Of a stretch of 64,000 nucleotides of DNA, positions 24,843 through 34,052 are shown piece after piece. The position numbers and the translations under genes are program-made. Source of the DNA: Haloprofundus halophilus (GTDB lineage: Archaea; Halobacteriota; Halobacteria; Halobacteriales; Haloferacaceae); contig NZ_QQRR01000002.1 in assembly GCF_003439925.1 (NCBI RefSeq), positions 806,001 to 870,000 on the forward strand, read 5' to 3'. Below the pieces are notes generated by a model. The model saw only the letters and a list, made by a program, of their open reading frames with translations, was not told the DNA's origin and did no database searches. Positions within the stretch are counted from its first letter, which is position 1. Every line of letters begins with the position of its first letter.

Positions 24843-25229
24843 TCAGCTCTCGCGGCCGGTGAGTTCGTCGAGCTTCTCGAAGTACTCCTCGCGCGGAACC
24901 TGGTACAGCGACCGGTACTCCACCTCGCCGTCGGCGAACCGACGCGCGCACTCGACGGCGCCGTCGACGCCGGCCGCTCGGGAGTCGTACTCGGTGGTCT
25001 CGGCCTCGATCTCGGGCTCTAACAGGAGCGTCACGTGCCACGTGTCGGTCTCTATCTGGGAGGCACCCGGTCGCCGCTTCCGCGAGCCGTTGCTGAGAAA
25101 CACCGTCGGCATACAGGGGGCGGGGAACTGCTGGCTGTCGAACACGTCCGGTCGGTAGGCGAGAATCGCCCGGCCCTCCGGTTCGTCGTTCCAGACGGTC
25201 CACCCGTCGGGGAGCGCATCGAAGCTCAT
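24843..25229 (-). CDS. Conserved haloarchaeal protein (DUF5820-like)
   Basis: This 128-residue cytosolic protein begins MSFDALPDGWTVWNDEPEGR. It has a beta-strand then helix layout (AILAYRPDVFDS, DTWHVTLLLEPEIEAETTEY, AVECARRFADGEVEYRSL) and no catalytic signature. The DUF5820 label is from recall. On the minus strand a TATA-like GATTTATGTA near 25358 lies about 100 bp upstream, inside the first copy of the 136-bp duplicated block. Confidence 0.8.
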   Translation of the reverse strand: MSFDALPDGWTVWNDEPEGRAILAYRPDVFDSQQFPAPCMPTVFLSNGSRKRRPGASQIETDTWHVTLLLEPEIEAETTEYDSRAAGVDGAVECARRFADGEVEYRSLYQVPREEYFEKLDELTGRES

Positions 25230-25329
25230 ACGAGGGAGTTCGGTCGCCGAGCGGTTAAGCCGACCCGTTCGTCGTCGCGGGTCGCGTTCGACGCTCGGCG
25301 CCGGTCGGTCGCGGCTCCCGTCTCCCGGT

Positions 25330-25465
25330 ATTACCCCTCGAAAGTGCGAGCGAGTACATAAATCTCTCTCGTGATAGGTTCGGGAGCGTCGTCCATCGTC
25401 GCTGCGTCTGCCTATTTCCCCGTTCCAATTTCGTGAACGGACCCGAAATTGGGAAAAGACTTATG
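25330..25465 (+). promoter_or_regulatory. 136-bp promoter/operator block, copy 1
   Basis: This copy differs from copy 2 (25923-26058) at only about six positions. It contains the inverted repeat CCAATTTCG/CGAAATTGG (25425-25433, 25444-25452) with a 10-bp spacer, directly followed by the BRE/TATA-like GAAAAGACTTATG. It would start transcripts near 25490, ahead of the 33-codon ORF. A TATA-like GATTTATGTA on the opposite strand near 25358 makes the block possibly bidirectional. Confidence 0.75.
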
Positions 25466-25501
25466 CAGGAAAATCGTCTAAGTGCCAAATACTTGTGGTT
25501 T

Positions 25502-25517
25502 CCTCCTGGTCCTGGAC
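25502..25517 (+). repeat. 16-bp direct repeat, copy 1
   Basis: CCTCCTGGTCCTGGAC recurs exactly at 25696-25711. The pair brackets the 33-codon membrane ORF. Confidence 0.9.
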
Positions 25518-25561
25518 AGTCCAAGAGGTTCTGCAAGTAGCACAGAGAGGCAAGTCAAAAC

Positions 25562-25663
25562 ATGGACATTACCATCGTAGTGCCGTATGAAATATCTCTA
25601 CTAGCGATACAAATTGTGCACGTTGGAGTGACATACGCGCTACTCAGTAAGAACGAAAACTAG
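25562..25663 (+). CDS. Putative 33-aa membrane peptide
   Basis: ATG 25562 to TAG 25661-25663. The peptide MDITIVVPYEISLLAIQIVH continues with VGVTYALLSKNEN: a single hydrophobic helix with a charged tail. The DNA is clearly AT-richer than the core genes. It sits 70-75 bp downstream of the predicted transcription start of promoter copy 1 and between two 16-bp direct repeats. No homologue is recognised, so its reality is uncertain. Confidence 0.4.
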   Translation: MDITIVVPYEISLLAIQIVHVGVTYALLSKNEN

Positions 25664-25695
25664 GGGAGCACATAGTCAGTGGGAACTGGCTGTGC

Positions 25696-25711
25696 CCTCC
25701 TGGTCCTGGAC
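25696..25711 (+). repeat. 16-bp direct repeat, copy 2
   Basis: This is an exact second copy of CCTCCTGGTCCTGGAC, 194 bp after the first. Confidence 0.9.
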
Positions 25712-25721
25712 GTATAGACAT

Positions 25722-25967
25722 ATGACTGCACCACTTATAATCTTTTATCTGAGCTATGTGGTGACCTCTGGATATTCACTTTCTGAATTTTTGGTTTTTA
25801 TTGCCACGAGTAGCGTCAGCAATATGAGTTCGAGTGAGTTTAGTGAAACTCAGTCGTACCTGAGCAATGTCAACTTGTTCAATATACAACACCGAACCAA
25901 CCGGCCGCTCTCATCGCTCGAAATTACTCCTCGAAAGTGCGAGCGAATACATAAATCTCTCTCGTGA
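25722..25967 (+). CDS. Putative 81-aa small membrane protein ending in the repeat block
   Basis: From ATG 25722 the frame reads MTAPLIIFYLSYVVTSGYSL, then SEFLVFIATSSVSN, giving two hydrophobic segments, then a serine-rich polar half. The last 15 codons (25923-25967) lie inside the second copy of the 136-bp block, so the C-terminus is probably not native. Codon use is AT-rich and unlike its neighbours. It may be a real transferred gene truncated by the duplication, or spurious. Confidence 0.3.
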   Translation: MTAPLIIFYLSYVVTSGYSLSEFLVFIATSSVSNMSSSEFSETQSYLSNVNLFNIQHRTNRPLSSLEITPRKCERIHKSLS

Positions 25968-26058
25968 TAGGTTCGGGAGCGTCGTCCATCGTCGCTGCGT
26001 CTATCTATTTTACCGTTCCAATTTCGTGAACGGACCCGAAATTGGGAAAAGACTTATG
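25923..26058 (+). promoter_or_regulatory. 136-bp promoter/operator block, copy 2 (prkA promoter)
   Basis: This is the second copy of the duplicated block. The inverted repeat CCAATTTCG/CGAAATTGG occupies 26018-26026 and 26037-26045 and is followed by GAAAAGACTTATG with the TATA centre near 26053. Transcription should start near 26080. An operator-like palindrome abutting the BRE suggests control by a dimeric regulator. Confidence 0.75.
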
Positions 26059-26209
26059 TATGCTACTGACTCACACTCTAAATAGTCTCGGACAACTCCG
26101 AGGTGGATGCAGCAATCACCCTCCCCGTACCGCTCGCCAAACGAGAGCCGTTCTGTGTCGTTCGCAGTCGCCGATAACGTCGTCGTGCGCGAAGGAGGTG
26201 TGTCAAACG

Positions 26210-26371
26210 ATGTCACGGACGAACGACTGTCGGCCACGACTACCACGCCCCACGGCGCGAGCGACGCGTCAGCGGACCGGCGAGTCGCGGCCGGTCGTCG
26301 CGCGACGGAGCTTTCGTCCGCGACAGGCGCCCGTCCGCAGACTACACGAGACTCCGTCAGTGATACAATGA
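26210..26371 (+). CDS. Possible arginine-rich upstream ORF of prkA (53 aa)
   Basis: ATG 26210 follows a strong Shine-Dalgarno-like GGAGGTG (26194-26200). The frame ends in a TGA that overlaps the chosen prkA start as ATGA (26368-26371). The peptide MSRTNDCRPRLPRPTARATR and onward is extremely basic, opposite to the acidic proteome, which is also what shadow frames in GC-rich DNA look like. If translated, it could couple ribosomes to prkA. Confidence 0.3.
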   Translation: MSRTNDCRPRLPRPTARATRQRTGESRPVVARRSFRPRQAPVRRLHETPSVIQ

Positions 26372-28440
26372 ACGGCGAAATCGAAACCCTCGAAGACCTG
26401 AGCCAGCACTACCAGGACTCCGTGCCAGCGGACCTCCGCGAGGCGAACACGTTCGACTGGTACCTGCGCGAACTGTACGACGACCCGCGCATCGCTCGCA
26501 ACGCCCACCAGCGCGTTGCCGACATGTTCGACTACTACGGCACCGAGTACGACGAAGACGCCGGTGTCGTCGAGTACCTCATGGCGTCGGAAGACCCCCT
26601 CCACGAGGGCGAGAACATCTTCTACGGCCGCGAGGTCCACGAGTCCATCCACGAGTTCGTCAACAAGGTGAAAAGCGGCGCTCGCGGACTCGGCCCCGAG
26701 AAGCGTATCAAACTCCTTCTCGGCCCGGTCGGGTCCGGCAAGTCGCACTTCGACCTGATGGTCCGACGCTACTTCGAGGACTACACGATGCGCGACGAGG
26801 GGCGGATGTACACCTTCCGGTGGACGAACCTCTGCGACGTCATCCGCGACCAGGACCCCGCCGACGACACCGTCCAGTCGCCGATGAACCAGGACCCCAT
26901 CGTGTTGCTTCCGCAGGAACAGCGCGACAGAGTCATCGAGCGACTGAACGAGAACCTCGACGCGCCGTACACCATCCGCAACGAGCAGTCGCTCGACCCC
27001 GCCAGCGAGTTCTACATGGACAAACTGCTGGCGGAGTACGACGACGACCTCCAGTCGGTGTTGGAGAACCACGTCGAGATCATCAGACTCGTCGCCAGCG
27101 AGAACAAACGCCAGTGCATCGAGACGTTCGAACCGAAGGACAAGAAGAACCAGGACGAGACGGAACTGACGGGCGACGTCAACTACTCGAAGCTCGCGGT
27201 GTACGGCGAGTCCGACCCGCGCGCGTTCGACTACTCGGGTGCGTTCTGTAACGCCAACAGGGGTCTGTTCTCCGGCGAGGAGCTGCTGAAACTCCAGCGG
27301 GAGTTCCTCTACGACTTCCTGCACGCGAGTCAGGAACAGACCATCAAGCCGAAGAACAACCCCCGAATCGACATCGACCAGGTCATCGTCGGGCGGACGA
27401 ACATGCCCGAGTACCGCGACAAGAAGGGCGACGAGAAGATGGAGGCGTTCAACGACCGGACGAAACGCATCGACTTCCCGTACGTCCTCGAGTACACCCA
27501 GGAGGCCGAAATCTACCGCAAGATGCTGCGGAACGCCGACGTGCCGCACATGCACATCGAGCCGCACGCGATGGAGATGGCGGGACTGTTCGGCGTGCTG
27601 ACGCGCATCACCGAACCCGACGGCGAGCGCATCTCGCTGACGCAGAAGGCGAAAGCGTACAACGGCGAGATAGACGACGGCGACGACGTGGACGTGAAGA
27701 AGCTCCGCGAGGAGGGAGAGTCGAAAGCCGACATCGCCGAGGGGATGGAGGGCGTCTCCGCGCGCTTCATCGGCGACGAGATTGCCGAGGCCATCATGGA
27801 CTCGACGCACCGCGGCCGCGACTACCTCAGCCCGCTCTCTATCTTCACGCACTTCGAGGAGAACCTCGAGAACCACGGCTCCATCCCCGAGGAGAACGTC
27901 GAGCGCTACCACCGCTACCTGGAGATGGTGCGCGACGAGTACAAGGAGCGCGCCATCGAGGACGTGCGCCACGCGCTCGCGTACGACTTAGACGAGATTC
28001 AGCGGCAGGGCGAGAAGTACATGGACCACGTGATGGCGTACATCGACGACGCCACCGTCCGCGACGAACTCACCGGCCGCGAGCAAGACCCCGACGAGAA
28101 GTTCCTCCGCTCCGTCGAGGAGAAACTGGAGATTCCGAGCGACCGCAAGGACGACTTCCGACAGGAAGTGAGCAACTGGGTCTCGCGGCGCGCCCGCGAG
28201 GGCACGTCGTTCAACCCGCAGGACAACGACCGCCTCCGCCGCGCGCTGGAGCGCAAACTGTGGGAGGACAAGAAGCACAACATCAACTTCTCCGCGCTGG
28301 TGTCGGCGAACGAACTGGACGACGACGAGCGCAACGCCTGGATAGACGCGCTCGAAGAACAGGGCTACTCCCGCGAGGGGGCGCGCGAAGTGCTCGAGTT
28401 CGCCGGCGCGGAGGTGGCCAAAGCCGAACTTGAGACGTAA
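26368..28440 (+). CDS. PrkA-family serine protein kinase / AAA+ ATPase (PrkA1)
   Basis: This 690-residue protein matches the PrkA/YeaG length and layout. The N-terminal AAA+ domain has Walker A LLGPVGSGKSHFD (about residues 110-122). The central ATPase part has QVIVGRTNMPEYRDKKGDEK, and the C-terminal PrkA domain has GRDYLSPLSIFTHFEENLEN. The start is MNGEIETLEDLSQHY; an open frame extends 87 codons upstream to 26107 with low-complexity, non-conserved text. It is the first gene of a four-gene operon, four bases ahead of PrkA2. In bacteria PrkA/YeaG acts with YeaH and SpoVR/YcgB in starvation and sporulation stress. The role in archaea is not established. Confidence 0.93.
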   Translation: MNGEIETLEDLSQHYQDSVPADLREANTFDWYLRELYDDPRIARNAHQRVADMFDYYGTEYDEDAGVVEYLMASEDPLHEGENIFYGREVHESIHEFVNKVKSGARGLGPEKRIKLLLGPVGSGKSHFDLMVRRYFEDYTMRDEGRMYTFRWTNLCDVIRDQDPADDTVQSPMNQDPIVLLPQEQRDRVIERLNENLDAPYTIRNEQSLDPASEFYMDKLLAEYDDDLQSVLENHVEIIRLVASENKRQCIETFEPKDKKNQDETELTGDVNYSKLAVYGESDPRAFDYSGAFCNANRGLFSGEELLKLQREFLYDFLHASQEQTIKPKNNPRIDIDQVIVGRTNMPEYRDKKGDEKMEAFNDRTKRIDFPYVLEYTQEAEIYRKMLRNADVPHMHIEPHAMEMAGLFGVLTRITEPDGERISLTQKAKAYNGEIDDGDDVDVKKLREEGESKADIAEGMEGVSARFIGDEIAEAIMDSTHRGRDYLSPLSIFTHFEENLENHGSIPEENVERYHRYLEMVRDEYKERAIEDVRHALAYDLDEIQRQGEKYMDHVMAYIDDATVRDELTGREQDPDEKFLRSVEEKLEIPSDRKDDFRQEVSNWVSRRAREGTSFNPQDNDRLRRALERKLWEDKKHNINFSALVSANELDDDERNAWIDALEEQGYSREGAREVLEFAGAEVAKAELET

Positions 28441-28444
28441 ACCC

Positions 28445-30718
28445 ATGCGCGAAGATTACATTCGCGCCGCCGACGCCGAGTTGCGCGGCGCGTACGAGGA
28501 GCCGATGAGCCTCGAAACGTACGTCGACGCGGCGTTCGAGTCGCCCTCCATCGCCTCGCACGCCTCGAAGTACCTCTTAGAGGCCATCGAGTCGATGGGG
28601 ACGCGGACCGTCGTCGAAGAGGGCGAGGAGCGTCGGCGCTACCGTTTCTTCGACGACCCCCACAACGACGGCGAGCACGCCATCCTCGGCAACACCGAGG
28701 TTCTCAACGGCTTCGTCGCCGACCTCAGAACCATCGCCGCCGACCGCGGCAAGAGCGAGAAGATCCTCTGGTTCGACGGGCCGACGGCGACCGGGAAATC
28801 GGAGCTAAAGCGGTGTCTCATCAACGGGCTTCGGGAGTACTCGAAGACTCCCGAAGGACGGCGCTACACCGTCGAGTGGAACGTCTCGACGGCCTCCGAC
28901 ACCCGGGGACTGAGCTACGGCGGCGACGAGTCGGGCGAGAACGAGGACAACTGGTACGAGAGTCCGGTGCAGGTCCACCCGCTGACGGTGTTCCCGCCGG
29001 ACGTGCGCGAAGCGCTCCTGACGGACCTGAACGACTCGTCGGGCGACCACATCCCGACGGTCGTCGACGAGGAACTCGACCCGTTCTCGCGGGAGGCGTA
29101 CTCCTACCTCGAAGAGCAGTACCGCCGCAACGGGAAGGTCGACCTGTTCTCGGCGGTGGCCGACACGCGCCACCTCCGCGTGAAGAACTACGTCGTCGAC
29201 GTGGGCAAGGGCATCGGCGTGCTGCACTCCGAGGACGACGGCAGTCCGAAGGAGCGACTCGTCGGCAGTTGGATGCCGGGGATGCTCCGCGAACTCGACT
29301 CGCGGGGGCGAAAGAACCCGCAGGCGTTCAGCTACGACGGGGTGCTCTCGCAGGGCAACGGCCTCCTCACCATCGTCGAGGACGCCACCCAGCACTCCGA
29401 TCTGCTCCAGAAACTGCTGAACGTCCCCGACGAGGGGCGCGTGAAGTTGGACAAGGGCATCGGGATGGACCTCGACACGCAGTTGCTCATCATCTCCAAC
29501 CCCGACCTGGGCGTCGAACTCGACAAGTTCGCCGACCGGAACGGGCGCGACCCGCTGAAGGCGCTGAAGCGCCGCCTCGACAAACACGAGTTCCGCTACC
29601 TCACGAACCTGAGTCTCGAAAGCCAGCTCATCCACCGGGAGCTGACGAGCGAGACGGCGGTGTGGGAGGACGTCGACTACAGCGAAATCGAAGCGCGCAT
29701 CCGCGAACCGGTCACCGTCTCGGTGCGCGACGAGGGCGGCACCGTCGTCGACCGCGAACTCGCGCCCCACGCCGTCGAGGCGGCGGCGCTGTACAGCGTC
29801 GTCACCCGCCTCGACGGCGAGGACCTCCCCTCGGGACTGACGCTGGTCGACAAGGCGCTGCTGTTCGACCGCGGCTACCTCCAGGAGGGCGACGAGCGGC
29901 GGACCGTCGACGACTTCGAGTTCGACCGCGACGGCGAGGAGGGGACTCACGGTATCCCCGTGACGTACACCCGAGACACCGTCGCCGACCTGCTCCAACG
30001 CGAGAGCGAGCGCGCCCACGCCGACCTCCCGGTCGAACGGGTCGTCATGCCGGACGACGTGCTCGACGCGATGGCCGACGGACTCCGAGCCGCACCGGTG
30101 TTCTCTCGCGGCGAGGTCGCCGAGTACGAGTCGCGCCTCGCGAGCGTCAAGGGCTACATCTTCGACCAGCAGGAGCGCGACGTGCTCGACGCCATCCTCG
30201 CGGAGAAACACGTCGAACAGGAGACGGTCGCCGAGTACGTCGAACACGTGTACGCGTGGGCGGGCGACGAGGAGATAGAGACCGAACGCGGCCCCGTCGA
30301 AGCCGACGCGCTGCTGATGAAACTGTTCGAGACCGAACACCTCGGCCGGTTCGACGACGACGCGTACACCGGCAACGACCCGTCGCCCCAGGTGGCGCAG
30401 TTCCGCCGCGAGAAGGTCATCTCCGCGCTGAACCGCTACGCGTGGGAGAACCGCGACGAGGGGTTCGCGGTCCACAAGGTCGACTTCACCGAGATTCCGG
30501 TCATCCGGGCCGTCCTAGAGAACCACGAGTGGAGCGACGTGCAGCGCCTGTTCGAGGACTTCGACCCGCGCCAGTGGGAGGACCCGCCGGCGAACACCGA
30601 GACGGCGCGGCTGAAGGAGAAGACCGTAGAGCGGATGGTGAAGGCGGGCTACTCGGCGGCCAGCGCCGAGCTGACCAGCCGGAAGGTGATGCGAGAGGTG
30701 AGCTACAGATGGGACTGA
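28445..30718 (+). CDS. Second PrkA-family protein (PrkA2)
   Basis: This 757-residue protein has Walker [16 protein letters not shown] near residue 115. A long insert follows ([40 protein letters not shown]), and the C-terminal PrkA-like helical domain contains [20 protein letters not shown]. Overall similarity to PrkA1 is low, so it is an ancient paralogue. The start ATG at 28445 follows the PrkA1 stop closely; an in-frame ATG at 28430 adds MRRKP. The 3' end overlaps the yeaH start by 10 bp. A paired-kinase arrangement suggests the two form one complex. Confidence 0.9.
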
Positions 30719-32031
30719 GAGACGACCTCGAACGGTTCCGCGAAGTGGGCGAAGAGCGCCGCGAAGACCTCGAAGAGTTCATCAGCTACGGTGACCTCGG
30801 CGGGTCGGGCGCGAACAGCATCAACATCCCCATCAAGGTGGTGGACCTCCCGGAGTTCGCCTACGACGTCCGCGACCGCGGCGGCGTCGGACAGGGACAG
30901 GGAGGGACGCCTGACGTGGGCCAGCCCGTCGGCCCGCCGCAACCCGGCGACGGCGACGGCGACGAGGAGGGCGACCCCGGCGAGGAGGGTGCAGACCACG
31001 AGTACTACCAGATGGACCCCGAGGAGTTCGCCCAAGAGCTCGACGAGCAGCTCGGATTAGACCTCGAACCCAAAGGCAAGGAGGTCATCGAGGAGATAGA
31101 GGGCGACTTCACCGACGTGACGCGAAGCGGCCCGAACAGCACGCTCGACTTCGAGCGCCTGTTCAAGGAGGGGCTGAAGCGCAAGCTCTCGATGGACTTC
31201 GACGAGGAGTACGTCAGAGAGGCGCTGAAAGTCGAGGGCAAGGACGCCGAAGACGTGTTCCGCTGGGCCCGAGAGAACAACATCCTCGTCTCGTGGGCGT
31301 GGGTCGACGACGCCTACGGCGACGTCCCCGACGACGAGCGCGACAAGTGGTCGAGCTTCGAGGAGATGGAGGAGAACGTCGAACGGACGACCACGCTCCA
31401 GCGCATCCGCCGCGAGGGCCTGCGCGAAGTGCCGTTCCGCCGCGAGGACGAGCGCTACCGCCACCCCGAGATAATCGAGAAGAAGGAGAAGAACGTCGTC
31501 GTCGTCAACATCCGCGACGTGTCGGGGTCGATGCGCGAGAAGAAGCGCGAACTCGTCGAGCGGACGTTCACGCCGCTCGACTGGTATCTGACCGGCAAGT
31601 ACGACAACGCCGAGTTCGTCTACATCGCCCACGACGCCGAGGCGTGGCAGGTCGAGCGCGAGGAGTTCTTCGGCATCCGCTCGGGCGGCGGCACGAAGAT
31701 TTCCTCTGCGTACGAACTCGCCGCGGCGATTCTCGAAGAGGAGTACCCGTGGCACGAGTGGAACCGCTACGTGTTCGCGGCGGGCGACAGCGAGAACTCC
31801 TCGAACGACACGACCGAGAACGTCGTGCCGCTGATGGAGGATATTCCGGCGAACCTGCACGCGTACGTCGAGACGCAACCCGGCGGCAACGCCATCAACG
31901 CGACGCACGCCGAGGAGGTCGAACGGGCGCTCGGCGGCAGCGGAAACGTCGTCGTCGCGCGCGTCTCGCGCCCCGAGGACGTGATCGACGCCATCTACGA
32001 CATCCTGAGCACGGAGGACGACGACCAATGA
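30709..32031 (+). CDS. YeaH/YhbH family (DUF444) VWA-domain protein
   Basis: This 440-residue protein starts [20 protein letters not shown] and has an acidic glycine-rich linker (residues about 60-95). A C-terminal von Willebrand A domain carries the MIDAS motif [12 protein letters not shown] and downstream [17 protein letters not shown]. The family partners PrkA and SpoVR in bacteria. Its start lies inside the end of PrkA2 and its stop overlaps the SpoVR start (ATGA), which shows tight translational coupling. Confidence 0.95.
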
Positions 32032-34052
32032 GACCGAACCGACTGACGGCGAGAAAGGAAGCGACGAAACTCGAAGAACCGACGCGCGAGGCGGCGGCGC
32101 TCGCGCGAAAACTCGGCCTCGAACCGTACCCGGTGAACTACTGGGTCGTCAGCTACGACGAGATGAACGCGCTCATCGCCTACGGCGGCTTCCAGACCCG
32201 GTACCCGCACTGGCGCTGGGGGATGACGTACGACCGCCAGCAGAAACAGGACCAGTTCGGGATGGGCAAGGCGTTCGAGATCGTCAACAACGACGACCCG
32301 AGCCACGCGTTCCTCCAGGAGTCGAACACGCTGGCCGACCAGAAGGCGGTCATCACCCACGTCGAGGCCCACGCCGACTTCTTCGCCAACAACAGTTGGT
32401 TCGGACTGTTCGGCGGCGACCTCGACGCCGCGGCGATGCTCGAACGCCACTCCGAGGCCATCGCGAACTACATGGAGGACCCCGAAATCGACCGCGCGGA
32501 GGTCGAGAAGTTCATCGACGCGGTGCTCTGCTTGGAGGACTGTATCGACCAGCACCGCCCGTTCGACGAGGCGGCCGACCCCCGCGAGCGGACGACGCCC
32601 GAGGACCTCCGCGAGCGACTGGAGGGGATGAACATCTCCGACGAGGTGCGCAGACAGGTGTTCGACGAGGAGTGGCTCGACCGACTGGCCGAGGCCGAGG
32701 AGGCCGCCGCCGACCTCACCGACCCGCAGAAGGACGTGCTCGGCTACCTCCAGCAGCACGGGATGCAGTACGACGAGGAGGAGGGGAGAGCCGCCGAGAT
32801 GGAGCCGTGGCAGCGCGACGTGCTCGACATGCTGCGGACGGAGGCGTACTACTTCGCCCCGCAGAAGATGACGAAGGTGATGAACGAGGGGTGGGCCGCC
32901 TACTGGGAGTCGCTGATGATGGGCGAAGAGCGGTTCGCGGGCGAAAACGAGTTCCTGCTGTACGCCGACCACCAGGCGAAGGTGCTCGGGTCGCCGGGGC
33001 TGAACCCGTACAAACTCGGCAAGGAACTGTGGGAGTACATCGAGAACACGACGAACCGCCGGGAGGTGGCCGACAAACTCCTCCGCGTCGAGGGCGTCTC
33101 GTGGCGCAACTTCCACGAAGTCGTCGACTTCGACGAGGTGCAGGGGCTCCTGCAACCGAACCCCGCGCTCGACGGCATCCGTCCGGACACGCTGGACGAA
33201 CTCGTCGCCCTGGGCGACGACCCGCGCGTCGACGCCGAGACACTCGACCGAGCGGTTTCCGAGTACGCCGCCGACGAACTCGACGAGGACGAGCGAACCG
33301 TCGACGTCGACAAGTACCCGTGGAAGGTGCTCACCTACGAGGGACTCGCCGAGCGGCATTTCTCGCTGGTCAAACCCCAAAACCGGGGCTTCCTCGGCCG
33401 CATCCGGCGCTCGGAACTCGAACAGCTCTCGCGCTACATGTTCGACGACGAGCAGTACGCGACGGTCGAGGAGGCGCTCGCGGCTATCGACCACGCCGCC
33501 GGGTGGGACCGGATGCGCGAGATCCGCGAGAGTCACAACGACGTGACGTTCCTCGACGCGTTCCTCACGCAGGAGTTCGTCACGACCAACCACTACTTCA
33601 CCTACGAGTTCACCCGCGCCAGCGGTGACTTCCGCGTGACGAGCACCGACTACCAGGACGTGAAGAAGAAACTGCTGCTGCAGTTCACGAACTTCGGCAA
33701 ACCCACCGTCGCCGTCTACGACGGCAACTACGGCAACCGGAACGAACTGCTCTTGGGCCACCAGTACAACGGCATCATGCTCGATTTGGGCGAGGCCAAG
33801 CAGGTGCTGAAGCGGACGTACGACCTGTGGGGCCACCCGGTGAATCTGATGACGATCATCAAAGAGTACGACGACCACGACGTCGAGGTGGCCCGCCGGC
33901 GTAACCGCGAACCGACGCCCGTCGAGAACGGTATCCGTATCCGCTACGACGGCGAGACGTTCGAGCACCACGACCTCGAACCGGAGCTGAGAGAGCGGAT
34001 CGCCGCCGGCGACATCGACTACGACACGAAACCCGACGAGTGGCTCTCGTAG
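32028..34052 (+). CDS. SpoVR family protein
   Basis: This 674-residue protein has the family N-terminus [17 protein letters not shown] then [20 protein letters not shown], the conserved [15 protein letters not shown], the [20 protein letters not shown] helix and the [20 protein letters not shown] region near the C-terminus. In Bacillus SpoVR affects spore cortex, and in enterobacteria YcgB is a stationary-phase protein, but the biochemistry is unclear. It is last in the PrkA1-PrkA2-YeaH operon. A T-rich string near 34108 may end transcription. Confidence 0.96.

Follow-up and report, generated by a model that had tools for sequence, protein, structure and literature searches.

The window analysed here, a 64,000-nt stretch of the Haloprofundus halophilus genome, contains an operon in which genes for PrkA (PF08298/PF06798), a second PrkA-like protein, YeaH (DUF444) and SpoVR lie in a row, the SpoVR match falling below its equivalog cut-off (Table 1). 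PrkA operons are widespread stress systems, and the PrkA encoded here is 94-95% identical to that of H. marisrubri and Halegenticoccus. The start of prkA had earlier been placed at 26107; we replace it with 26368 (MNGEIETLEDL...), since the ATG at 26107 is ACG in H. marisrubri and the start at 26368 is conserved across families. The longest ORF (26107-26367) would add 87 residues to PrkA from a start that is not conserved. Judging from these comparisons, the 87-residue extension should probably not be annotated.

Upstream of prkA, a promoter-bearing block is present twice on the same strand. A repeat finder delimited 155 nt at 92% identity, within which self-BLAST recovered a high-identity core of 136 bp (25330-25465 and 25923-26058; 95.6% identity, spacing 593 bp) at an E-value of approximately 1e-60, so that the similarity of the two blocks is not due to chance. 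The duplication of this block is real, and because the copies differ by 4-8%, an assembly artefact is argued against. The original prediction of two 136-bp copies with about six differences is therefore borne out over the core; only its left limit shifts, as a less similar stretch extends the repeat by about 20 bp on that side. The block begins just before a distal TATA-like box and ends with the core TATA; in both copies a BRE/TATA element (GAAAAGACTTATG) abuts a palindrome. Copy 1 ends at its TATA, and both the start-site region and the leader are absent from it.

Table 1 Features of the prkA locus, with positions in the window.
Feature	Position	Strand	Basis or remark
Promoter block copy 1, distal TATA-like box to core TATA	25311..25465	+	native left flank (DUF5820 gene) adjoins, as in congeners
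Distal TATA-like box TACATAA, copy 1	25355..25361	+	kept in all five Haloprofundus
Palindrome CCAATTTCG-N10-CGAAATTGG, copy 1, candidate operator	25425..25452		exact-site search; left arm varies in genus
Core TATA copy 1 (ACTTATG), end of duplicated block	25459..25465	+
AT-rich insert, 44% GC, ~420 bp, unique to genome	25466..25886		sequence searches
16-nt direct repeat CCTCCTGGTCCTGGAC, first copy	25502..25517	+	shuffle test
ORF1, 33 aa, MDITIVVPYEISLLAIQIVHVGVTYALLSKNEN, hydrophobic; may encode a small membrane peptide	25562..25663	+
Strong hairpin directly after ORF1, possible terminator or attenuator	25664..25699	+	region z = -2.46
16-nt direct repeat, second copy	25696..25711	+
ORF2, 81 aa, N-terminus hydrophobic, unlikely to be a gene	25722..25967	+	overlaps copy 2
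Promoter block copy 2, native prkA promoter	25904..26058	+	runs on into prkA as in congeners
Distal TATA-like box TACATAA, copy 2	25948-25954	+	kept in all five Haloprofundus
Palindrome CCAATTTCG-N10-CGAAATTGG, copy 2, candidate operator	26018..26045		exact-site search
prkA core TATA box (copy 2)	26052..26058	+	alignment of 33 loci from different families
Start-site region CTAAATAGTCTCGG, conserved, with predicted 5' hairpin (CTCGGA-CAAC-TCCGAG); outside the duplication	26078..26103	+	locus alignment; genome model
prkA leader, ~285 nt, inferred untranslated	26084..26367	+	locus comparison
prkA (AAA_PrkA and PrkA C-terminal)	26368..28440	+	domain match
prkA2, second PrkA-like gene	28445..30718	+	domain match
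yeaH (DUF444)	30721..32031	+	domain match
spoVR	32028..34052	+	137.6 bits, under equivalog cut-off 679, yet sole match

An alignment of 33 loci defined a conserved prkA core promoter in haloarchaea, comprising a BRE-like AAG, a TTAT(A/G) TATA box, CTCA approximately 15 nt further on and then TAAATAGTMTCGG. When the core promoter and start region were modelled together, the model matched 229 of 392 haloarchaeal genomes (E <= 0.01) and gave a single match in nearly all of them, the downstream prkA gene being checked for part of the matches only; where a genome gave a second match, it represented the tandem copies of Halobium and Halobonum discussed below or a weak site elsewhere. Since the core promoter is nearly always single-copy and prkA-linked across haloarchaea, a second copy is unusual. 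Copy 2 has its BRE and TATA at the fixed distance from the inferred start region, and this conservation upholds its proposed role as the promoter of the prkA operon, while copy 1 retains the BRE/TATA and nothing further of the layout.

Predicted leaders at haloarchaeal prkA loci range from 100 to 330 nt and end at the conserved prkA ATG. The sequence ACAATG at this start codon is invariant in a 28-sequence alignment. Most loci have a predicted 5' hairpin beginning at AGTMTCGG (mean z -1.40 vs 0.04 in control windows; 67 loci, many of them related), which rests on single-sequence folds, as RNAalifold returned no consensus pair in the start-region alignment. Together with this predicted hairpin, the prkA leader is a candidate regulatory RNA of haloarchaea. 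A search of 25200-26500 gave no Rfam match up to E = 5, so that no known structured RNA leader was recognised there. We rejected a single stable RNA fold spanning the entire leader (z only -1.1), an upstream ORF overlapping the prkA ATG (ACAATGA), for which the start and end frames disagree in loci L006 and L009, and 28-nt matches in other families (L011-L015), which proved on inspection to be unrelated coding sequence.

The distal element of the block also has counterparts elsewhere, with a similar TATA-like box found in the same zone of 28 of 67 prkA loci against 2.6 expected. In many haloarchaea it lies at lineage-specific distances of ~107, 120 and 129 bp from the prkA core TATA. Helical phasing between the two boxes was not established, the corrected distance classes stepping by ~13 and ~9. 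Between the boxes, the predicted 9-10-9 palindrome abutting the BRE/TATA is exact in both copies. The genome-wide search that had been suggested for it found exact sites only in these two copies in the 3.47-Mb genome and two more at three mismatches; recurrence at other promoters, as for the operator of a regulon, was not seen. The palindrome is recognisable in all five Haloprofundus species with a drifting left arm (9/9 pairs here, 8/9 in three congeners and 6/9 in one) and no compensatory change among the five, whereas the other genera inspected carry other sequences at that place. Being confined to the genus and drifting in its left arm, it is a candidate operator only: it may serve that role, but the symmetry that had suggested it is not kept across the five species. 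In Ca. Halobonum tyrrellensis (L154), each promoter copy has a perfect 18-bp palindrome (GTCGGACGCGCGTCCGAC), unlike that of Haloprofundus, between its distal and its core TATA.

Four congeners each have a single block with the DUF5820 gene to its left and prkA to its right, and this genome thus carries an extra unit of ~593 bp. Aligning these relatives, proposed as a means of telling which copy is ancestral, did not separate them, since neither is consistently congener-like over the 13 differing columns and the two stand at about the same distance from the congeners. Recombination probably created the unit or brought it in, and gene conversion, described as efficient in Haloferax volcanii (PMC8223754, PMC11276520), may keep the copies alike.

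The segment between the copies contrasts with flanks of ~65-70% GC and matched nothing in its own genome, the four congeners, phages or plasmids. A transposon or MITE insertion is not supported, as the genome holds no further copy and no terminal inverted repeat was apparent on inspection between the 16-nt direct repeats. An exact 16-mer repeat was never reached in 3000 shuffles (maximum 14). Enclosed by this repeat, ORF1 has no match in Pfam or NCBIfam, and the hairpin that follows it is without a T run. The second small ORF of the original prediction is probably not a gene, as it extends into copy 2 and no convincing relative was found. The segment between the copies could be a neutral scar: foreign or displaced DNA carrying a stretch homologous to the promoter would have recombined into the prkA promoter and later been reduced to a meaningless remnant. 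This is quite possible, and it is the main rival to a reading, set out below, in which a membrane peptide shares the prkA promoter. One crossover between homologous stretches yields exactly the order repeat-insert-repeat, and the AT-rich unique DNA, the clean single-copy state of the congeners, the isolation of ORF2 and the non-significant homology of ORF1 would all fit.

What a scar explains less readily is the recurrence of the arrangement. Self-comparison of 86 prkA upstream regions, a set in which Halobonum was entered twice (L044 and G242) and some loci are closely related so that counts are not independent, showed the promoter in tandem in just three genomes, namely this one, Halobium salinum and Ca. 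Halobonum tyrrellensis. A further ~120 prkA upstream regions, partly from the same species as the first set, yielded no tandem copy. The spacings are nearly equal at 593 bp here, 594 in Halobium (97% identity over 299 nt) and 610 in Halobonum (85% over 205 nt), and the copies enclose small ORFs of 33, 40 and 42 aa, respectively. ORF1 is analogous in position and size to the ORFs of the other two genera, just upstream of prkA and accompanied by a second prkA-type promoter. A hydropathy scan (ATG, 24-75 aa, one hydrophobic stretch) detected a small hydrophobic ORF in 5 of the 86 loci, two of which are among the three duplicated ones (p ~0.008 if loci are independent).

The three layouts differ in detail. 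Halobium shares the small membrane ORF and an AT-rich spacer with the window, but its repeat runs from the BRE through the whole leader, its ORF occupies the place of the prkA start and it is without the 16-nt direct repeat. In Halobonum (L044, L154), the repeat begins at the distal TATA-like box and takes in the core promoter, as in the window, but continues over about half the leader; its spacer has 64% GC, and its peptide is only mildly hydrophobic and failed the scan. Its ORF is likewise enclosed by an exact 16-nt direct repeat, the second copy of which begins ~33-35 nt past the ORF stop in both genomes, although the repeat sequences differ. In genome G263 (locus L010), a small single-helix ORF precedes prkA and is a relative of the Halobium peptide, but no promoter duplication is detectable. 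As the repeat ends differ between genera, the duplications either arose independently or go back to an old arrangement that conversion tracts of unequal length have overwritten.

Shuffle tests relate the ORFs of Halobium, Halobonum and G263 to one another (p 0.001, 0.00025 and 0.02), and those of Halobium and G263, both upstream of prkA, are mutual best non-self six-frame matches among short ORFs, one longer reading frame scoring marginally above this pairing in one six-frame search. ORF1 aligns similarly with these peptides at a shuffle p of 0.06-0.09 and ranks second of 321 window ORFs against a three-sequence HMM (E = 3.6); its E-value of 1e-7 in another profile search arises because ORF1 itself was included in the profile. 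The related peptides in three genomes, the small-ORF layout in two other genera and the coincidence of the repeat with a functional two-TATA module all speak against a meaningless remnant. The original prediction had counted a duplication restricted to one isolate, with no conserved ORF between the copies, against itself. Within the genus the duplication is indeed limited to this genome, and conservation of the ORF could not be demonstrated; in other genera, however, the same architecture is seen again.

We tentatively propose, with a probability of roughly 0.45, that a small membrane-peptide gene has been wired to the prkA promoter and that its peptide is made together with the stress kinase. 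A second prkA module, consisting of the distal TATA-like box, the palindrome spacer and the core BRE/TATA, would then lie upstream of an AT-rich segment encoding a membrane peptide of ~33 residues. Judging from conservation, copy 2 would drive the PrkA operon via the intact start region and leader, as in relatives, whereas copy 1 would probably start a short transcript ~25 nt past its TATA that spans ORF1 and perhaps ends at the hairpin behind it. From sequence comparison we infer the activity of copy 1, the translation of ORF1 and its co-regulation with prkA, so that the peptide would be produced whenever the PrkA-YeaH-SpoVR proteins are. The 95.6% identity, which spans the whole two-TATA module, favours this proposal; against it stand the absence of the duplication from all four congeners, the non-significant homology of ORF1 and the lack in copy 1 of the most conserved element, the start-site region. 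Co-regulation of small ORFs with the kinase operon, as originally put forward, is strengthened by the same layout in two other genera, but it cannot mean equal output, since copy 1 is without the start region and leader, and control acting through the leader would not reach ORF1.

The extra copy might instead act on prkA itself, with read-through or interference from copy 1, or titration or cooperation of a regulator, altering kinase output. The same-strand tandem arrangement, the two TATA-like boxes per module and the missing T run of the ORF1 hairpin would permit this, but a strong hairpin separates the copies and the palindrome symmetry is not conserved even within the genus, and we consider such an effect improbable. 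A role for ORF1 as a small hydrophobic toxin, within a type I-like module for addiction or stress that uses the prkA promoter, is very improbable; the size and hydrophobicity of the peptide, the strong RNA structure and the patchy, lineage-specific presence would fit, but the Halobonum peptide is not strongly hydrophobic, and we know of no archaeal type I toxin-antitoxin system for comparison. As an unlikely extension of the shared-promoter proposal, very small membrane peptides may work with PrkA in some haloarchaea and have been captured repeatedly by duplication of its promoter, the 16-nt repeats of the window and Halobonum appearing as if they bounded an exchangeable cassette.

Across haloarchaea, the prkA promoter, start region and leader emerge from this analysis as conserved and nearly always single-copy, and the promoter doubling around a small ORF in three genera points to a partner peptide and a regulatory unit that can both be tested. 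The recurrent layout suggests that one switch at times serves both a small membrane peptide and the PrkA kinase. In the literature searched, which was covered without most subscription journals, we found neither a published account of prkA operon control in archaea nor a report of a doubled prkA promoter around a small ORF. Duplicated promoters are familiar, as are small membrane proteins; that literature gave no example of the two combined at prkA, a combination seen here in three genera.

The YeaG(PrkA) stress kinase of E. coli (PMC4664914) differs from haloarchaeal PrkA in being under bacterial control. Promoters of Haloferax volcanii, which have a CGAAA BRE and a TTWT TATA (PMC4983044), resemble the prkA promoter, in which AAG and TTAT(A/G) stand at a fixed distance from the inferred start region. 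In H. volcanii 72% of protein-coding transcripts are leaderless (PMC4983044), and unlike most of these, the prkA transcript would begin with an inferred leader of 100-330 nt.
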